A stretch of 48,190 bases of DNA from IMG/VR virus record IMGVR_UViG_3300032085_000308, positions 1-48,190 of that record; one strand, 5' to 3'. The position numbers and the translations under genes were made by a program. Below are positions 9,601 to 17,414 of the stretch, one piece after another. Source of the stretch: a virus. The notes under the pieces were generated by a model. The model searched no databases and had not been told where the DNA came from. It worked only from the letters and a program-made list of their open reading frames with translations. The stretch's first letter is position 1; each line of letters starts with the position of its first letter.

Positions 9601-10014
9601 TTAGGGTTTAAATTAAGACCTCAAGATGCTGAAGTAAATAAATTAGGTAAAGAATTAGAGTACAAGCAAGAGTTAAAAAAACTACAAACTAAAGAAAGAA
9701 GAATATTAAGTAATTTTAAAAAATACGGTACAGCAGTATATAAATCAACAGAAGAAAGAGATAAAGAATTAGAAGAAGTAGGAGAAGAAATTATAAAACT
9801 TAGTGCAGAATATGAAATATATTTAGTTGAATTAAGAAAGTTAGAAGGTAAACAAGCAGAAGAAAAATTTAAAAGACTTAACAAATTTAAAGGTGGTGAA
9901 GTAGACGTGCCTTATACAAAGGATGAACCTGAAGATAGAGTAGACCCTTTTACAGGACAACCTTACTCATCACAAATGGAGGAATTAGGATTAAATGTTT
10001 TTCAAGAAAAATAA
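6667..10014 (+). CDS. Large internal virion (ejection) protein, ~1115 aa
   Basis: The N-terminal third holds small-residue hydrophobic segments at ~85-110 (MIAFLGSAVVADPVSYVPIVG), ~160-182 (VIGAAAGTVLAGGGGALVDVV) and ~250-285. These are typical of large podovirus ejection proteins and polyvalent-protein-like domains that enter or cross host membranes. The middle is mixed alpha/beta and rich in aromatic residues. The C-terminus is highly charged coiled coil (~980-1070) followed by a DPFTGQPYSSQ tail. I see no transglycosylase or protease catalytic motif. The gene ends overlapping the lysozyme gene by 20 bases, so virion and lysis genes share a transcript. Confidence 0.6.
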   Translation: MVDYSNDKTHIEYVRQNVNPLYKLDKEEAMKYAVSMGASDSARGIGQLFGKAGEYFGWDGLSEKLKEKDKKLKAILESEEYGKDAMIAFLGSAVVADPVSYVPIVGWLSKGKKAKNLMELTKYGAVSGAAVSSLGYTAENERTLLQDKDASLLQKRLENTVIGAAAGTVLAGGGGALVDVVQKARGKGSIFKTVDEPPVTQTKTVETVKEAQDNIVKETSKTDKTKYNLKNPILKKYQDYVGTPIKNAIFNNPGESLGFIAGYNGYSDPEASYKEKITSGLILAASIKGAKNIKYKDDYIKDIVGRGVIDSYGLTPDYIKLKQQYRINKNEIGSEFYDILARAEKDLSPEQNKLLYNFMVGDIQGVEKLSPEALAINDESRKLITKYANEFTQRGLVDANVVKQNINTYLKRSYLKPKESTNTVKYDNLSEIRLIGDELKPRGLEEKITLKSFNDPKTTWKDEGWKVVEEYKDGRVKIRRDFTKDERIQMQEIEDASYAIAETGRLFANDLSTARFFDELSQNPNFVLSKDKYKSLDIGDQKNFVLVPDVKVKGTDKPQYGQLNGMYVNKDVFSDLKHIYGYSKADWGRNLDGLQNLWKKTKTAWNFGTHVGNTASNVMLIDFADADLKYVGKAWKEMMNKNSAIHKQAKLDGIFDADFISREFRNSTTEIEKALTALRGDKFGSGIVEKVKQVVNFGKKYTTDQMEKLYQFEDQIFRMAVYMDRLDKGYSQVDAALDARKWFIDYDINAPVVKLAKRTFVPFVSYTYRVIPLLAEAATLRPHKFAKWAAFGHAMNEGSAYLKEDKTGEQIDRLTMREQQRKRMFGDVPVIGDAMPYTNIRIPFDDDEGNALYFDVSRWIPGGDIFEQRESSVGIPGVPSPLQPGGLYVDAIANFMFKTDPFTGQSLEDLGVDTDSTFEIAKHFGSRIPPNMPFIKGTYAYKKYEKAKSLKTGQVDSEQIYGSKYVAPDMPWASIAYGLGFKLRPQDAEVNKLGKELEYKQELKKLQTKERRILSNFKKYGTAVYKSTEERDKELEEVGEEIIKLSAEYEIYLVELRKLEGKQAEEKFKRLNKFKGGEVDVPYTKDEPEDRVDPFTGQPYSSQMEELGLNVFQEK

Positions 10015-10468
10015 TAAATTAGATATAGAACTTTGCAAGGCTGAAATAAAAAGACACGAAGGCGAGGTTTTAGAAATATACAAAGATAGTCTAGGCTATA
10101 AAACTTTAGGAGTTGGACACCTTTGCCAACCAGAAGACCCTGAATATGATTGGGAAGTTGGTACACCTGTTACTCAAGAAGTTGTAGACATGTACTATGA
10201 GGATGACTTTAAAAAGCATCATAAGGAAACCATACATGTTTTTGGTAGTGAGGAAGACTTTGAAAAACTTCCAGAGCCTATACAAAGAGTATTAGTAAAC
10301 ATGTGTTTTAACTTAGGTGGTACAAGACTTTCAAAGTTTCGTAACATGTTAAAGGCTTGTAGAAACCATGATTGGAAAGAAATGGCTGTACAAATGGAAG
10401 ACAGTCGTTGGTTTAGACAAGTAGGTAGACGTAGTATAGAACTACAAAAAATAGTTTTAGAACAGTAA
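9995..10468 (+). CDS. Endolysin, T4-type lysozyme (GH24 muramidase)
   Basis: This 157-residue protein cleaves the MurNAc-GlcNAc bond of peptidoglycan to release progeny. The GH24 catalytic triad is intact: Glu22 in RHEG, Asp31 in YKDSLG and Thr37 in KTLGVGH. Their spacing equals Glu11/Asp20/Thr26 of T4 lysozyme. The C-terminal lobe has the family's conserved FNLG (~110) and RR.xE features. No signal peptide or anchor is present, so export through the adjacent holin is expected. It overlaps the end of the upstream virion gene by 20 bases and is followed immediately by a small ORF and the holin. The ATG has AGGA six bases upstream. Confidence 0.93.
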   Translation: MFFKKNNKLDIELCKAEIKRHEGEVLEIYKDSLGYKTLGVGHLCQPEDPEYDWEVGTPVTQEVVDMYYEDDFKKHHKETIHVFGSEEDFEKLPEPIQRVLVNMCFNLGGTRLSKFRNMLKACRNHDWKEMAVQMEDSRWFRQVGRRSIELQKIVLEQ

Positions 10469-10618
10469 ATGATATTATACACTGAAAAGCAATTAGAAGA
10501 TTGCTACAGGCAGTACTGTCTTTTACAAGGAAAAAACAATATGAGTTTTGTTTCTTTAAAAGAATTTAGAATTTTATTTGAAGATTTAACAGAGATAATA
10601 TATAAGGAAAAAGAATGA
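10469..10618 (+). CDS. Small hypothetical protein in lysis cassette (49 aa)
   Basis: The ATG directly follows the lysozyme stop and the TGA overlaps the holin start as ATGA, so the 49-codon frame fills the gap exactly. The product (start MILYTEKQLEDCYRQY) is soluble, charged and Tyr/Phe-rich with two cysteines and no membrane segment. The perfect end-to-end fit with both neighbours is the main evidence that it is real. No function is apparent; a regulator of lysis timing is a guess from context. Confidence 0.65.
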   Translation: MILYTEKQLEDCYRQYCLLQGKNNMSFVSLKEFRILFEDLTEIIYKEKE

Positions 10619-11088
10619 AAGCATTATTAAAAAACATAGTTGGAGCTGTTGCACCTACATTAGGAACTGCATTAGGTGGACCAATGGGAGGAATGGCGGC
10701 TAACATGATATCAGAAGTGTTAGGTGTTCCTAATACTCCAAAGGCTATAGAGAAAGGATTAGCCGAAGCTACACCTGAACAAATGTTAGAACTTAAAAAA
10801 GCTGAACAAGCTTTTGAAGTACAGATGAAAGAGCTTGAAGTAGATGTATTTAAGTTAGAGACACAAGATGGACAAGATGCTAGAAATAAGTTTAGTAAAG
10901 ACTGGACAGCCCGTATCATGGGTATAGCTGTTGTTGGTGGTTTCATGGGATACATATTCCTTGTTACTCTACAACCACCAGAGCAGAACTCTGAAGCTCT
11001 TATAAACCTTGTACTCGGATATCTTGGTGGATTAGCAAGTGCTGTTATATCTTTTTACTTTGGAGCTTCTAACACACAGAAAGACTAA
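10615..11088 (+). CDS. Holin, 3-TM gene-transfer-agent type
   Basis: This 157-residue membrane protein should form the inner-membrane lesion that lets the lysozyme reach the cell wall. It has a small-residue hydrophobic N-terminus (~8-37, rich in Gly/Ala), a charged helical middle (45-90, LELKKAEQAFEVQMKELE), the family-like DWTAR motif at 96-100, and two clear transmembrane segments at ~101-119 and ~128-150. This matches the GTA_holin_3TM family common in alphaproteobacterial phages and gene transfer agents. It overlaps the upstream 49-residue gene by 4 bases and its stop shares a base with the next start. Confidence 0.82.
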   Translation: MKALLKNIVGAVAPTLGTALGGPMGGMAANMISEVLGVPNTPKAIEKGLAEATPEQMLELKKAEQAFEVQMKELEVDVFKLETQDGQDARNKFSKDWTARIMGIAVVGGFMGYIFLVTLQPPEQNSEALINLVLGYLGGLASAVISFYFGASNTQKD

Positions 11089-11438
11089 TGGATTCTGTAG
11101 TTCAATTAATTAATGAAGTTGGTTTTCCAATAGCAGCAGCTATAGGTCTAGGTATGTTTATCTGGAAACTTATTAATAAAATTATTGATGGTATGGAAAC
11201 TAAAGTAGATGTGCTTGATGAAAAGGTATCTGCTCAAATATCAGAAATAGAATCAAGACTAGGAGCAAAGTTAGATTCACAACATGGTATCTTAGTAGCT
11301 CTTATAGATAGAGTACGTTCTGTAGACAATGAAATTATTAGACAAGATACGCTTCTTAAAACTATACTTGGCGTACCACAATTAATGCATACCGATAGAT
11401 TAGCGAAGGCAGATAGAGATGACCAAAGAAAAGATTAA
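11088..11438 (+). CDS. Lysis-cassette membrane protein with coiled coil (i-spanin-like topology)
   Basis: This 116-residue protein has one N-terminal transmembrane segment (residues ~10-29), then a long charged helix (~33-90) predicted to be a coiled coil, and a polar tail. This is the topology of inner-membrane spanins and of several small lysis accessory proteins, though the sequence gives no firm family match. The start overlaps the holin stop by one base, and a 29-codon membrane peptide overlaps its end. A periplasmic coiled coil reaching an outer-membrane partner would fit a spanin role; the neighbouring CsgG lipoprotein is one conceivable partner. Confidence 0.6.
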   Translation: MDSVVQLINEVGFPIAAAIGLGMFIWKLINKIIDGMETKVDVLDEKVSAQISEIESRLGAKLDSQHGILVALIDRVRSVDNEIIRQDTLLKTILGVPQLMHTDRLAKADRDDQRKD

Positions 11439-11508
11439 ATTAGAATTACCTATAATAAGTATATTTGTATTCTTATTTATAGTAAGTGTGTTAGAGAATA
11501 TACAATGA
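11419..11508 (+). CDS. 29-residue single-TM peptide
   Basis: ATG at 11419 lies inside the end of the preceding gene and the TGA overlaps the CsgF start as ATGA. The product has a short charged N-terminus (MTKEKIKLE) and one hydrophobic span of about 16 residues (IISIFVFLFIVSVL). Overlaps of exactly this kind join every gene in this stretch, which supports it as real. Its size and anchor fit a tiny lysis or antiholin-type peptide, but no homology can be claimed. Confidence 0.55.
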   Translation: MTKEKIKLELPIISIFVFLFIVSVLENIQ

Positions 11509-11999
11509 AATTAAAACCAACATTTAAAAGTAAAAAGAGTGAAAGGAACTGCAAGTTTTGTATGTTCTTTTGGTCTATGCTAATTATGTTTTGGTCTGTA
11601 GGAAGTATTGCAGATGAAGTTGTATTTAAGTTTAAGAGTCCTAGCTTTAGTGGTGTTAATACTAGCTCACATTATCTTACAATTCAGAACCAAGAGTTCA
11701 ATAGAAAACAAGCCCTTGCTGCAGAGATAAAAGCTTTACAAGACCAGATAGAAAGAGACAAAGAGAATACAACACTTGCAAGGTTCATAAGGAACTTGGA
11801 ATCACGTATATACTCACAGTTGTCAAGACAGTTAGTAGAAAATTTATTTGGAGAAACTCCTTCTGATTTTGGTACACTAACTTTAGAAGGCAATACAATA
11901 GTATACAAGGTAGAAGACGGAATAATAACTTTAACTATAACGGACAGTGATGGCAATTCAACGACTATATCTTTGCCTGTTGGTAACTTTACTTTCTAG
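11505..11999 (+). CDS. csgF: CsgF-like curli secretion accessory protein
   Basis: This 164-residue exported protein has an unusually long Lys-rich n-region, a hydrophobic core (~20-33) and a good signal peptidase site after SIA (mature start at Asp37). The mature N-terminus FKFKSPSFSG matches the CsgF signature (E. coli FQFRNPNFGG) that inserts into the CsgG pore and forms its second constriction; the two Phe of FxF, the Pro, the later Phe and the Gly are kept. A helical middle follows (~66-116), then a small beta domain (LTLEGNTIVYKVEDGIITLTI) like CsgF's C-terminus. In curli systems CsgF anchors nucleation at the cell surface. It overlaps csgG by about 50 bases, an order also seen in bacterial curli operons. 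Confidence 0.87.
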   Translation: MKLKPTFKSKKSERNCKFCMFFWSMLIMFWSVGSIADEVVFKFKSPSFSGVNTSSHYLTIQNQEFNRKQALAAEIKALQDQIERDKENTTLARFIRNLESRIYSQLSRQLVENLFGETPSDFGTLTLEGNTIVYKVEDGIITLTITDSDGNSTTISLPVGNFTF

Positions 12000-12804
12000 T
12001 TGTGCAGTAGTACAGGAGAGTGGAGACTTAGTTTTAACTAAAAGAATCCAGTCAAGTTCTACATTAGATTTACAATCAGAAGAATTAAGAAATTTACCAC
12101 CAGCTAAAGTAAAACCAACGATAGCAATATACCCTAATAGTTTTAGGGACTTAACAGGACAGCGTAGAAGTAACAGTACTTTTGCTTTGTTTAGTACAGC
12201 AGTAACACAAGCACCTGAAGCTTTTCTTATTAGAGCTTTTAAGCATACAGCAGGTGGAGAGTTTTTTAGAGTTGTAGAACGTGTAGGTTTAGATGACCTA
12301 ACAAAAGAAAGACAACTTATACGTAGTACACGTAAAGATTTTAAAGAAGATAATAAGATGCAACCACTGTTATTTGCAGGGTTGTTAGTTCAGGGTGGAG
12401 TGATTAGTTACGAAGCTAATTTAAAATCTGGTGGTTCTGGTGCAAGATACTTAGGTATTGGAACAAGCAAACAGTTTAGGGAAGACACAGTTACTATATC
12501 TTTAAGGTTAGTATCTGTATCTACCGGTGAAGTTCTTATGGAAACATTAGTATCCAAAAGCATTTTATCTACAAGTGTTTCTCAGGATGTATTTCGTTTT
12601 ATTGAAACTGGCACAGAGCTAGTAGAAATAGAAGGTGGTATATCAGAGAATGAAAGTGTTTCTATAGCGTTGCAAAAAGCTGTAGAGACTGGAGTATTAA
12701 ATATAATCAATATTGGAATAGAGAGAGGCTATTGGAAATATGAACAAACTAAAATTATTAAGCCTAATTGTACTGATGAATGTATCAGTGCTATACGGGG
12801 CTGA
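11950..12804 (+). CDS. csgG: CsgG-like outer-membrane lipoprotein, curli secretion channel
   Basis: The N-terminus is a lipoprotein signal with lipobox LSSC (Cys18 counted from ATG; a GTG one codon upstream is possible). The body follows E. coli CsgG closely: AIYPNSFRDLTGQ, FSTAV, a helix with RAFKH, VVERVGLDDLTKERQLIR, GVISYEANLKSGG followed by GARYLGIG, LRLVSVSTGEVL, VFRFIE and AVETGV. CsgG forms a nine-subunit beta-barrel that exports curlins through the outer membrane. At the constriction the Phe of FSTAV (E. coli Phe56) is kept, but the preceding Asn55 is Leu and the Tyr51 position is not aromatic by my alignment. The C-terminal 20 codons overlap the signal peptide of the next gene. Confidence 0.9.
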   Translation: MAIQRLYLCLLVTLLSSCAVVQESGDLVLTKRIQSSSTLDLQSEELRNLPPAKVKPTIAIYPNSFRDLTGQRRSNSTFALFSTAVTQAPEAFLIRAFKHTAGGEFFRVVERVGLDDLTKERQLIRSTRKDFKEDNKMQPLLFAGLLVQGGVISYEANLKSGGSGARYLGIGTSKQFREDTVTISLRLVSVSTGEVLMETLVSKSILSTSVSQDVFRFIETGTELVEIEGGISENESVSIALQKAVETGVLNIINIGIERGYWKYEQTKIIKPNCTDECISAIRG

Positions 12805-13456
12805 CAACGAAATATACATAGACCAATCAGGTGCTACGTTTAATCTAGATGCTGAACAGTTAGGTTCAGGTAACATCATAGGTGGAGCTGATGCAATTGC
12901 TGGTACTATGACTGCATTAGACTTAGACGGTGCTACACAAACCATAGACGTGAATCAAATTGGTTCAAACAATAAGTTCTTAGGAGACATTACTGCTGAT
13001 AACTTTGTAGGTTTTTGGGAGTTTGATGGTTCTACTAACGTATTCAATGTACAAATAGACCCTACTAATACTTATGGTGCTGATGGTTCTGATGTTAATG
13101 TTGATGTAACAGGTGGTACAAATACCTTTACATTAGACTTAGCAACTACAGCTCTTGCAAGTAATGCAGATGTTGACTGGGTTATTAATGGAGATGGCAA
13201 CACACTTGATTTTAACATTAACTACACTGACGCTACTAATGATGTAGATGTAGATGGTAACGATAATACTATCAACTTTACTGGTCAAGGCTATGCAGGT
13301 GGTTACTTTAAGTTAAATCAAACAGGTAATTCTAGAACATTTAACATACAACAAATGAGTACTTTAGACAATGACTGGTTACAAATTAATTCTACTGGTT
13401 CTAATGGTACTATCTGTGTCATTCAGAACGATGGGGGAAGTACAGTCGGTTGCTAA
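12740..13456 (+). CDS. Curlin-like secreted fibre subunit
   Basis: This 238-residue acidic protein has a clear signal peptide (residues 1-20) and a mature part made of short beta-strand repeats rich in Asn, Gly, Asp, Thr and Gln, with very few charges of the basic type. Curlin-like QxGxxN units appear at residues 29-34 (QSGATF, degenerate), 40-45 (QLGSGN), 73-78 (QIGSNN) and 194-199 (QTGNSR). The middle is a more Asp-rich repeat (NTLDFNI, NTINFTG). It ends with two cysteines (226 and 238). Directly following CsgF and CsgG, it is the obvious export substrate and may polymerise like CsgA/CsgB. Degenerate repeats make the amyloid inference weaker than for true CsgA. No separate CsgB, CsgE or CsgC is present. 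Confidence 0.75.
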   Translation: MNKLKLLSLIVLMNVSVLYGADNEIYIDQSGATFNLDAEQLGSGNIIGGADAIAGTMTALDLDGATQTIDVNQIGSNNKFLGDITADNFVGFWEFDGSTNVFNVQIDPTNTYGADGSDVNVDVTGGTNTFTLDLATTALASNADVDWVINGDGNTLDFNINYTDATNDVDVDGNDNTINFTGQGYAGGYFKLNQTGNSRTFNIQQMSTLDNDWLQINSTGSNGTICVIQNDGGSTVGC

Positions 13457-14495
13457 TATAGGCAACATAACTGAACTAAACGGAACAGGTAGAGTCGTAA
13501 GAGAAGTCCCTAAAGACTTAGACGAAACCTTCCAAGCTTCTCTTTCTTTAGACATAAACAGCTACGATAATGTCCAAACTTCTAACGGGAGATTGGGCAT
13601 TACTTTTTTAGATGACAGTCAAGTTAGATTGACAGAGCATTCTGAATTAATTATAGACGAATTTATCTATGACCCAGACCCTTCTAAGTCTAAGATGGCT
13701 TTACAATTTGCTAGTGGTACTGCAAGGTTTATCACTGGTAAGTTAGCATCTATAGATAAAGAAAACATATCTATACAAACTCCAAGTGCCACGATAGGTA
13801 TACGTGGTACAGACTTTACCGTGACTGTTGATGAGTTAGGTAGAAGTCTAATTATTTTATTACCTGATGACGATGGTCTTCCAAGTGGGGAGATTGTTGT
13901 ATCTACAGCAATGGGACAGGTGGTTCTTAACAAGCCTTATCAAGCTACTACAGTTTCTATGTTTGAAACTAAACCCACTAATCCCGTTATCCTTGACTTG
14001 ACTCTTGAGTTAATTGATAACATGTTAATTGTAAATAAACCACAGGAAATAAAAGAGAATGAAGGACAAGATGGAGGGAGCAACACTAATCTTCTTGATG
14101 TTGACTACCTTGAGTTTGATGATTTAGAAATAGATTATCTTGCAGAAGATGAATTAGAATTTACAGAGCTTGACATTAACTATCTTGATGTAAACTTTCT
14201 TGAAGACTTGTTAGACATTATAGAAGATGTCAATGAGCTAGACCAAACTTCAACACTTTTAAAGTCTGATATAGATTTAAAAGGTACGCAAATTGGTTAC
14301 GATAGTGAGACTCAGATAAATACTTTTATGACAGATAACGTCATAACATTTTACAAAGCTTTAGAAGACACGATTAAATTAGACTTAGATAAAACAAATG
14401 CTTACACCGTTGTAATGATACAGAACGGTAAGAGTACACAGATAGTTGTCAATGGTGGTGGTAACTCTAGCATAACTATAACGCAAGGAGACTAA
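13371..14495 (+). CDS. Exported FecR-domain protein with acidic repeats and curlin-like tail
   Basis: The chosen ATG gives a signal peptide (residues ~1-22, LILLVLMVLSVS) encoded in another frame inside the last 86 bases of the curlin-like gene. A FecR domain follows at ~70-155: GRLGITFLDDSQVRLTEHSEL, then LQFASGTARFITG and TPSATIGIRGTDFTV. In bacteria FecR domains sit in the periplasm and are often paired with CHASE2 cyclases. Residues ~241-290 form an acidic Leu/Tyr/Asp repeat (YLEFDDLEIDYL). The last 30 residues (VVNGGGNSSITITQGD end) resemble a curlin repeat. A shorter start at 13431 would lose the signal peptide. It ends one base before the cyclase, suggesting the two act together. Confidence 0.82.
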   Translation: MTGYKLILLVLMVLSVSFRTMGEVQSVANIGNITELNGTGRVVREVPKDLDETFQASLSLDINSYDNVQTSNGRLGITFLDDSQVRLTEHSELIIDEFIYDPDPSKSKMALQFASGTARFITGKLASIDKENISIQTPSATIGIRGTDFTVTVDELGRSLIILLPDDDGLPSGEIVVSTAMGQVVLNKPYQATTVSMFETKPTNPVILDLTLELIDNMLIVNKPQEIKENEGQDGGSNTNLLDVDYLEFDDLEIDYLAEDELEFTELDINYLDVNFLEDLLDIIEDVNELDQTSTLLKSDIDLKGTQIGYDSETQINTFMTDNVITFYKALEDTIKLDLDKTNAYTVVMIQNGKSTQIVVNGGGNSSITITQGD

Positions 14496-14496
14496 C

Positions 14497-16236
14497 ATGA
14501 AGTGGGCAATTACCTTATTAACTCTATTAACTTTACCTCTCCTCTTCAATAGTGTACCACTAGAAGTACTAAGACTCAAAACCTTTGATGCTCTTATAAC
14601 TGAACAAAGTCCAACCGGACACTTTACAATCCTCAACATAGGCGAACAATTCCTAGATGAACAGGGTGGATATCCTTTGCCTAGAGAAACACTTGCAAAG
14701 ATTCATAACGATATAATAAACAAAGGTGCATTAGGCGTGGGATGGGTGATGTTATTCCCACATGCAGATAGACTAGGTGGAGATGATGCATTCTCTAAAG
14801 CTTTACAAAGCTCTCCAAGTGTCATAGCTATGCCTGAAGTAACTAATGGTAATTATCCAAAGACAGTTGGTACTGTTATCAAAGGACCAATAGTGTCTTT
14901 ACCTAAAGCTCAAGGTTTCTTAGAGAACATAGAGCCTTTAAAACAATCAGCTAATCAAGGTGCTATATCTGCACCAGTAGATGTAGATAATTTAGTAAGG
15001 AGAATACCTTTACTACAACAAACTAATAATGGGTGGGTCGCTTCGTTTGGAACGGAAGTTTTAAAAATACTAGGAGGTGGTCGAACTTATCAGATTGTCA
15101 CAAATCTGAATGGAATAGAACAGGTTAGAGTGAGAGGCATTCCACCCATTGCCACAGATAGTCTTGGTCGTAAATGGATTAGCTGGGTAGATACACCACA
15201 GACTACACTAGAAGAACTAGATGTAGCTAATAAGTTTGTGTTCGTAGGCTTTACAGCAAAGGGAATATCCCCACAACTTGCAACACCTGTCGGGTTATTA
15301 GAACCTCATAAGATACAAGCTGCTCTATCAGAAAGTATGTTGATGGATACTCCTTACATACCAGACTATAGATTGTTTGTTGAGCTATTGTTATTGGTAC
15401 TGTCAGGCTTACTCACAGCTCTTGCAATCAATTATCTTGGTATCACTAAGGGTGTTGTATCCTTCTTAGGTTTGTTTTCTTTAATGGGATATATGGAGTA
15501 TCACTTTGTAAGCTCTAATATCTTGATAGACTTTACATGGGGCATGATAAGTATGACACTTATTGCTACCCAACAATTCTATCTAAACTTTAGAACACAA
15601 TTCAAACTTAGACAGCTTATAAAGAAACAGTTTGAACATTACCTTGACCCAAGACAAGTCAAACAACTACAAGATAATCCAGAGCTTTTGAAGTTAGGCG
15701 GAGAACGAAGACGTTGTACGTTTTTATTTACAGACGTGAGAGGCTTTACAAGTTTATCAGAAACTCTAGAGCCGGAAGAAGTTACAGAGATAATGAACAA
15801 GGCACTAACCATACAAGCTAATGCAGTTAAAGAGTATGGTGGTATGGTAGATAAGTATATAGGAGATGCAATGATGGCTATCTTCAATGCACCTATAGAC
15901 CTAGAACAACACGAAACCAAAGCAGTTCAAACAGCCTTGAAAATAAAACAAGATATGGCTGAAGCCGATTTAGGAATAGAGATAGGTATAGGGATAAATA
16001 CAGGAGAGGCGGTAATAGGTAATATGGGAAGCGATACAAGGTTTGATTACTCTGCAATTGGAGACGCTGTTAATCTAGCAGCAAGGTTAGAAAGTTCTAC
16101 TAAAGAAGTAGGAGAAGATATAGTAATTGGGTACACCACAGCTATGAACTCTGATATACCCACTAGGTATCTAGACCCTATAAAAGTAAAGGGTAAGAAA
16201 GATGATATTATTATCTACACTACTTTAGAACATTAA
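14497..16236 (+). CDS. CHASE2-domain class III adenylate cyclase
   Basis: This 579-residue inner-membrane receptor-cyclase has an N-terminal hydrophobic segment (4-20), a CHASE2 extracytoplasmic sensor (~25-285), three transmembrane helices (~292-312, 318-336, 342-362) and a class III cyclase domain (~400-579). Catalytic features are present: metal-binding Asp413 (FTDVRGFT) and Asp457 (YIGDAMMA), adenine-selecting Lys453, transition-state Asn526 and Arg530 (GDAVNLAAR). The second base-selecting position, normally Asp or Thr, is Ser519; Lys453 still favours ATP over GTP. It should convert ATP to cAMP in the host cytoplasm in response to a periplasmic signal. It follows the FecR gene by one base. 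Its 3' end overlaps the convergent small gene. Confidence 0.9.
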   Translation: MKWAITLLTLLTLPLLFNSVPLEVLRLKTFDALITEQSPTGHFTILNIGEQFLDEQGGYPLPRETLAKIHNDIINKGALGVGWVMLFPHADRLGGDDAFSKALQSSPSVIAMPEVTNGNYPKTVGTVIKGPIVSLPKAQGFLENIEPLKQSANQGAISAPVDVDNLVRRIPLLQQTNNGWVASFGTEVLKILGGGRTYQIVTNLNGIEQVRVRGIPPIATDSLGRKWISWVDTPQTTLEELDVANKFVFVGFTAKGISPQLATPVGLLEPHKIQAALSESMLMDTPYIPDYRLFVELLLLVLSGLLTALAINYLGITKGVVSFLGLFSLMGYMEYHFVSSNILIDFTWGMISMTLIATQQFYLNFRTQFKLRQLIKKQFEHYLDPRQVKQLQDNPELLKLGGERRRCTFLFTDVRGFTSLSETLEPEEVTEIMNKALTIQANAVKEYGGMVDKYIGDAMMAIFNAPIDLEQHETKAVQTALKIKQDMAEADLGIEIGIGINTGEAVIGNMGSDTRFDYSAIGDAVNLAARLESSTKEVGEDIVIGYTTAMNSDIPTRYLDPIKVKGKKDDIIIYTTLEH

Positions 16237-16438
16237 GTTCTCTTTGAAAGTAGTCATGTAAGTTTTCTAGTTTAGCTTTGCCATTTCTGATAATGGTTTT
16301 CATTAAGGGTCTATCATCAAGAGGGAACACCTCATCAACCATATTCTCCGGTAACATACTAAACTCTGTAACTATTTTGTTATCTCTTGTTAAGAGTATT
16401 TTGAAGCTTACTAAATTAGCTTCTTCTTTGTTAATCAT
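16220..16438 (-). CDS. Small hypothetical protein downstream of nrdB
   Basis: This 72-residue protein (start MINKEEANLVSFKILL) starts 1 base after the nrdB stop and is the last gene of the leftward arm. It has a beta-rich first half and a helical charged second half, with no cysteines or membrane segments. Its stop overlaps the convergent cyclase gene by 17 bases, leaving no room for a separate terminator. No family is recognised. Confidence 0.6.
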   Translation of the reverse strand: MINKEEANLVSFKILLTRDNKIVTEFSMLPENMVDEVFPLDDRPLMKTIIRNGKAKLENLHDYFQRELNVLK

Positions 16439-16439
16439 T

Positions 16440-17414
16440 TTATTCCTCTAGATTTGTGAAGGTTATATTATTTTGACTACCTCTTAATCCTGCTTTCATA
16501 TAAGTAGTTGCTCTACCCTCAAAGAAGTTCTGATGTTCGACACCCATAACCTCATCAATCCAACCAAGTGGATTTTCTTTCTGGTCATAGTTAGTCTTGA
16601 GTCCTAGTTGAAGTAACCTTCTATCAGCTATGTATCTATTGTAAGCATACATATCTTTTTTAGTTAGTCCTTTTAAGTCTCCCATCTCAAACACTAAGTC
16701 TAAGAACTTATCTTCTAACTCAACCATCTCTCTACAAATTTGATAAAGCTCTGCTTTGAAATCATCTGTCCATATCTCTATGTTCTCTTGGATAAATTCT
16801 CTGAACAGTTTGGTCATAGCTTCAACATGCATAGACTCATCACGAATAGAGTAAGTAACTATCTGTCCCATACCTTTCATCTTACCGAATCTTGGAAAGT
16901 TTAATAAGATTGCAAAGCTAGAGAACAACTGTAGTCCTTCTGTAAAAGCTGAATAAACTGCTAGTGTTTTAGCTATAGTTCTTTTGTCAGACTTAAGAGG
17001 TTTAAACTCTCCAACGTAATCATGTTTGTTAGCCATCTCTTCATACTCCGAGAAAGCTTTGTATTCTATTTCAGGCATACCAACTGTATCAAGTAGTAAG
17101 CTGTATGCATCTTGATGTATTGATTCCATGTTAGCAAAAGATGACATCATCATTCTTGCTTCAGGTTTTTTAAAGATAGGCATGTACTTATCTATATAAC
17201 CCGAAGCTACGTCAACATCTGATTGAGTAAACAATCTAAATATCTGTGTAAGTAAATGTTTTTCTTCAGGTGTTACATCCTGCCAATCTTTAACATCTGT
17301 ATGTAAGGGTACAGATTCAGGCATCCAGTGCATTTGATTCTGTAGTTTGTAGTACTCGTACATCCACGGATATTCAAACGGTTTATAGTAATCTCTAGTT
17401 TTTAATAGGCTCAT
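16440..17414 (-). CDS. nrdB: Ribonucleotide reductase class I, small (beta) subunit
   Basis: This 324-residue R2 protein generates the tyrosyl radical that NrdA uses to reduce ribonucleotides to deoxyribonucleotides. Diiron ligands can be placed: Asp in SDVD (66 or 68), Glu97 and His100 (MESIH), Glu159 (FTEGLQ), and Glu193 and His196 (DESMH). The radical Tyr104 sits seven residues after Glu97, as in E. coli (Glu115/Tyr122). The C-terminal tail (NNITFTNLEE) is where R2 docks on R1. Its start overlaps the stop of the zinc-ribbon gene (ATGA), so nrdA, the zinc ribbon and nrdB form one operon feeding dNTPs to phage replication. Confidence 0.95.
   Translation of the reverse strand: MSLLKTRDYYKPFEYPWMYEYYKLQNQMHWMPESVPLHTDVKDWQDVTPEEKHLLTQIFRLFTQSDVDVASGYIDKYMPIFKKPEARMMMSSFANMESIHQDAYSLLLDTVGMPEIEYKAFSEYEEMANKHDYVGEFKPLKSDKRTIAKTLAVYSAFTEGLQLFSSFAILLNFPRFGKMKGMGQIVTYSIRDESMHVEAMTKLFREFIQENIEIWTDDFKAELYQICREMVELEDKFLDLVFEMGDLKGLTKKDMYAYNRYIADRRLLQLGLKTNYDQKENPLGWIDEVMGVEHQNFFEGRATTYMKAGLRGSQNNITFTNLEE

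Follow-up and report, generated by a model that had tools for sequence, protein, structure and literature searches.

The reading favoured here, at a probability of roughly 0.5, for a gene cluster in the window (one virus record, 48,190 bases long) is that a phage carries a type VIII (curli) secretion module with its own sensor, which would act in an infected SAR11-like cell. Five open reading frames at 11505-16236 lie on one strand, each overlapping or abutting its neighbour, and encode the proteins named by the first-pass annotation: CsgF and CsgG, then an exported curlin-like protein, an exported protein with a FecR domain, and a CHASE2 cyclase set in the membrane. That observation is confirmed, but the module begins one gene earlier, at 11088. 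More tentatively, and with somewhat less than even odds, the phage may have merged two cellular systems, with a curlin-type strand making the FecR protein a secretion sensor that drives the cyclase, in hosts that mostly lack the usual receptor. The features are as follows.

9995-10468, plus strand: lysozyme (endolysin), Pfam Phage_lysozyme 4e-9; upstream of the module and outside it
10615-11088, plus strand: 157-residue protein with two hydrophobic segments, phrog_1544 (unknown function) 2e-25
11088-11438, plus strand: sixth module gene, 116 residues, an N-terminal hydrophobic segment and then a coiled coil
11505-11999, plus strand: CsgF, 164 residues, exported, Pfam CsgF 6e-18, phrog_35372 2e-43
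11947-12804, plus strand: CsgG, 285 residues, outer-membrane lipoprotein pore with lipobox LSSC, Pfam CsgG 2e-48
12740-13456, plus strand: curlin-like exported protein, 238 residues, C-terminus CVIQNDGGSTVGC, degenerate Q-x-G-x-x-N repeats
13371-14495, plus strand: exported FecR-domain protein, 374 residues, Pfam FecR 2e-11, phrog_37870 9e-81
14454-14492, plus strand: curlin-type C-terminal tail of the FecR protein, its last 13 codons, ending [IVL]x[IVL]xQx(n)
14497-16236, plus strand: membrane CHASE2-class III nucleotide cyclase, 579 residues, CHASE2 9e-27, Guanylate_cyc 1e-19

The gene set and its order have already been published, contrary to the impression of newness in the first-pass annotation, and the window adds a member from a different podophage lineage. 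The records of HTVC008M, a Pelagibacter phage, and Melnitz, a Methylophilales phage, annotate the same gene order. Zaragoza-Solas 2020 described csgF, csgG and their neighbours in pelagimyophages (PMC7029224) and Buchholz 2022 did so in Melnitz (PMC9004378), while Wittmers 2022 reported the module, FecR and adenylate cyclase included, ocean-wide in HTVC023P-type podophages and myophages (pelagimyophages) (PMC9599517); a paper on HMO-2011-type phages leaves curli unmentioned (PMC9038755). The phage curli module is widespread in the ocean, and its parts have so far been treated as loosely related add-ons. Added here are the FecR tail, the constancy of the sixth (small membrane) gene and the apparent scarcity of cAMP receptors in the probable host.

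Conservation of the set is extensive. Relatives are encoded in at least 561 IMG/VR stretches for FecR and at least 573 for CsgG, and CsgF, CsgG and the curlin lie upstream of FecR in 165/165 viral loci with room for them, while the cyclase lies downstream in 103/104, four of these inverted; the loci are best matches, a few contigs are counted twice, and the counts are not independent. The genes are thus kept together in related phages, across podophages and myophages, even where FecR identity is only about 42%. The inverted cyclase gene faces FecR in loci L135, L136, L139 and L150, with the rest of the module unchanged. Small contigs bearing the module (L254-L259, L297) were binned in metagenome-assembled genomes labelled Pelagibacter, Maricaulis, Flavobacteriaceae and Pirellulales, and are most likely misbinned phage DNA.

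Pfam matches to CsgF, CsgG, FecR, CHASE2 and Guanylate_cyc all exceed the curated cut-offs, and profile searches place the 164- and 285-residue proteins in CsgF and CsgG. CsgF keeps the N-terminus F-x-F-x-S/N-P-x-F (FKFKSPSF), a stretch resembling the segment with which E. coli CsgF is lodged inside CsgG. A phage CsgG profile of three sequences matches E. coli CsgG (3x2r/4uv3) in the PDB at 3e-64 to 3e-62. A phage-specific constriction loop in CsgG was considered and rejected: the loop is unlike that of E. coli, yet alphaproteobacterial CsgG has one equally long. CsgE was detected in none of ten phage records (the window and nine related ones), the E. coli control being positive; CsgE raises secretion and is not essential (PMC7029224).

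The curlin-like protein has only two clear Q-x-G-x-x-N repeats. It has no Pfam match of its own above the cut-off, its frame giving a weak, one-repeat Curlin_rpt match (E 0.019). Its identity as an exported curlin-like protein is supported in three ways: it aligns with the curlins annotated in HTVC008M and Melnitz, 15 of 21 relatives match Curlin_rpt (best 8.6e-6), and its model is all-beta (mean pLDDT 80.6). A fold search with that model found no PDB match at E <= 0.001. Many myophages have a second, longer curlin gene.

The FecR protein begins with an N-terminal hydrophobic signal, followed by the FecR domain at about 68-153, an acidic middle and a C-terminal beta region ending GGNSSITITQGD. 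Its model is poor (pLDDT 46.9), and its profile gave a single, chance-level match in the PDB (E 0.4). The tail strand has the form I-x-I-x-Q-x, and neither I370 nor Q372 varies among 34 relatives. An ending [IVL]x[IVL]xQx(1-2) occurs in 158 of 161 distinct phage FecR open reading frames, against a background of 15 among 2014 other open reading frames of these loci, and all 37 phage FecR clusters (85% identity) have the tail, one of them with one extra residue. The curlin-like proteins of myophages share this type of ending (GDNHDIDISQTD), as does E. coli CsgB (AIRVTQR), and in the curlin of the window lineage the strand is not bare but runs on into a short extension that closes with Cys (CVIQNDGG..GC). 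E. coli CsgB without its last repeat is gone from the outer membrane (PMC4551309). The FecR tail may be pictured as binding the curlin or the pore, which would physically tie the secretion half to the signalling half; among the papers searched, none was found to join FecR and curlin in this way.

The signalling half also contains a CHASE2 cyclase whose active site is intact, as judged by the residues D413, K453, D457, S519, N526 and R530. D413, K453, D457 and R530 are kept in 112/112 relatives and N526 in 105/112, and matches to adenylate cyclases in the PDB reach 5e-35. Lys453 together with Ser519 fits class IIIb adenylate cyclases. The phage cyclases group together, separate from the 21 cellular cyclases sampled. 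In the other seven of the 112 cyclases, including that of Melnitz (L003:10502-12553 and relatives), Ser replaces the catalytic Asn, a substitution that may lower cyclase activity. FecR and a CHASE2 cyclase are an independent cellular pair: a CHASE2 protein or cyclase lies within 3 kb at 33 of 73 cellular FecR loci, and FecR is found near CHASE2 with cyclases in Campylobacterota (PMC9239204), which bears out the earlier statement that the two are often neighbours in bacteria. At two scanned SAR11-family loci (L349:6295-10239, L350:5109-8531), FecR stands beside a CHASE2-SpoIIE phosphatase and not a cyclase; this host pair belongs to the same type of sensor but differs in its output.

The sixth gene, at 11088-11438, belongs to the module and is not a lysis gene: in 164/165 viral loci with room it precedes FecR, and its product matches only phage records that carry the module. 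These matches number 6 among 50,697 phage records and are the six annotated CsgG-carrying records, the seventh CsgG match being an unannotated record of 1.5 kb. The protein has one membrane segment, with a hydrophobic stretch at about 15-33, and the gene often occurs in two copies in myophage relatives. Wittmers 2022 described a histidine kinase, sometimes two, always preceding the T8SS genes (PMC9599517); this is probably the 116-residue family, and the 26 proteins checked (the window's and 25 relatives) contain no Pfam kinase domain. Two types of these small membrane proteins appear in the alignment, one with an ADGKKDARRD-like ending and the other with a variable tail, and the window's single copy looks intermediate between them. 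In locus L253 the two small membrane genes are inverted downstream of the module rather than upstream of csgF.

The phage itself is, by its terminase and PolA sequences, an HTVC103P/HTVC115P-like podophage: the terminase is 64-65% identical to those of Pelagibacter phages HTVC115P, HTVC103P and HTVC104P, and PolA is 52% identical to those of HTVC115P/HTVC103P-type Pelagibacter phages. HTVC115P is also collinear with much of the window genome, and this kinship and collinearity make SAR11 the probable host. A CsgG search gave no match in the isolates HTVC115P, HTVC103P and HTVC104P. In the window the module sits at a convergent junction with nrdB, whereas the corresponding junction of HTVC115P (nrdB, then a small gene homologous to window 16220-16438) is without it. 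Promoter and terminator sites at 9900-16600 were no more numerous than in shuffled sequences.

Only 2 of 60 SAR11-family genomes contain a cNMP-binding domain and 58 do not, in a sample of one family whose genomes may be incomplete, so that absence is not proof. A class III cyclase was likewise found in 2 of the 60, both on contigs of the phage module, and these "Pelagibacter" genomes were rejected as evidence of a host cyclase. A search of the window and nine related phage records found no cNMP_binding receptor. The proposal that the module is a sensor raising cAMP is plausible, but the usual cAMP receptor is missing; and because cAMP receptors are nearly absent in the SAR11 family, the published idea that the cyclase acts via cAMP regulation as in model Gammaproteobacteria is unlikely.

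Under the favoured reading, CsgG would form a pore in the outer membrane, which CsgF would gate or extend, and the curlin-like protein would pass through it to the surface of the infected cell. The FecR protein would be exported to the periplasm and pair there with the cyclase's CHASE2 receptor domain. The curlin-type strand at the FecR C-terminus would touch the curlin or the pore, such that cyclase activity would follow the secretion state. The membrane coiled-coil protein of 116 residues would always accompany the other parts, perhaps in the inner membrane. This reading draws on the gene identities, the conservation of the set, the intact cyclase residues, the cellular FecR-CHASE2 pairs and the strand shared by FecR, the curlins and CsgB. 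Counting against it are the absence of CsgE, the weak repeat match and missing PDB match of the window curlin, the extension after that curlin's strand, the poor FecR model and the scarcity of the usual cAMP receptors in SAR11. We infer that the benefit is most likely a change of the infected-cell surface, as a superinfection block or aggregation; Melnitz-infected cells show no clumping (Buchholz 2022, PMC9004378), and simple aggregation is therefore weighed against.

Other uses of the same genes have to be considered, each of which accounts for part of the evidence. The pore might export the curlin, and perhaps FecR with its tail, not as amyloid but as adhesins that are soluble or attached to virions, which would suit the scarcity of clear repeats in the window curlin and a common C-terminal strand serving as an export or capping signal of several substrates; this is unlikely, given gene content that closely parallels curli and the second, longer curlin genes of many myophages. 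A role in the timing of lysis, as proposed for Melnitz (PMC9004378), would make CsgG-CsgF an outer-membrane breach or pinholin-like channel with the 116-residue protein as its inner-membrane partner. The weak match of that protein to a holin PHROG (phrog_4898 at 3e-5) fits this, as does the position of the module after the lysozyme and a holin-like gene in the window lineage. The location downstream of a lysis cassette, however, holds for this phage lineage and not for HTVC008M and Melnitz, in which replication and accessory genes surround the module and lysis genes are not next to it; nor does lysozyme adjoin the module in the myophages. The 157-residue protein at 10615-11088, with hydrophobic stretches at 101-119 and 129-147, is a lineage-specific neighbour and probably the real holin, and with a separate lysozyme and holin-like gene at hand, and with exported curlins, FecR tail and cyclase unexplained though kept in nearly every locus, a lysis function is rather doubtful.

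Least convincing is a nutrient or cofactor pore, suggested in PMC9599517 and PMC7029224, in which ungated CsgG would admit large molecules to the periplasm of a starved host and FecR and the cyclase would sense uptake. The pore may indeed stay open with CsgE absent, and FecR is classically tied to iron uptake, but neither a sigma factor nor a TonB receptor was found among the open reading frames neighbouring the phage FecR, whose exported form is of a different architecture, and the conserved curlin-like subunits and FecR tail would be unaccounted for, which leaves this explanation improbable. Overall, the interpretation offered by the first-pass annotation is partly supported.

Cellular pairs of FecR with a CHASE2 cyclase or CHASE2-SpoIIE resemble the phage arrangement in that a FecR-domain protein adjoins a CHASE2 membrane enzyme, but they have no csgF or csgG alongside, and cellular and phage FecR have only the FecR domain in common, the cellular open reading frames being without the tail (0/78). 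The FecI/FecR regulator has a cytoplasmic N-terminus and an adjacent ECF sigma factor, neither of which is a feature of the phage FecR. Bacterial curli (csgBAC-csgDEFG) share with the phage module homologous CsgG and CsgF, a curlin-like substrate and a CsgB-like C-terminal strand, whereas the phage module is without CsgE and has FecR and the cyclase joined to the operon; neither FecR nor a cyclase stands beside csgFG in three alphaproteobacterial loci. Also close are HTVC008M and Melnitz, myophages that have a pair of small membrane genes and a further curlin gene, to which the window proteins are 46/37% (CsgF), 47/43% (CsgG), 42/37% (FecR) and 35/32% (cyclase) identical, respectively, with gene order alike. 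Another close counterpart is the T8SS cluster of HTVC023P-type podophages and pelagimyophages (PMC9599517), whose main text leaves C-termini and signal peptides unmentioned. There, csgF, csgG, csgA/B and fecR follow a small gene, or two of them, annotated as histidine kinase, and a second curlin gene sometimes stands between fecR and the adenylate cyclase. The window has the same gene identities in the same order, small gene(s)-csgF-csgG-curlin-fecR-(curlin2)-cyclase, and differs in being without the second curlin gene and in belonging to an HTVC103P/HTVC115P-like podophage.
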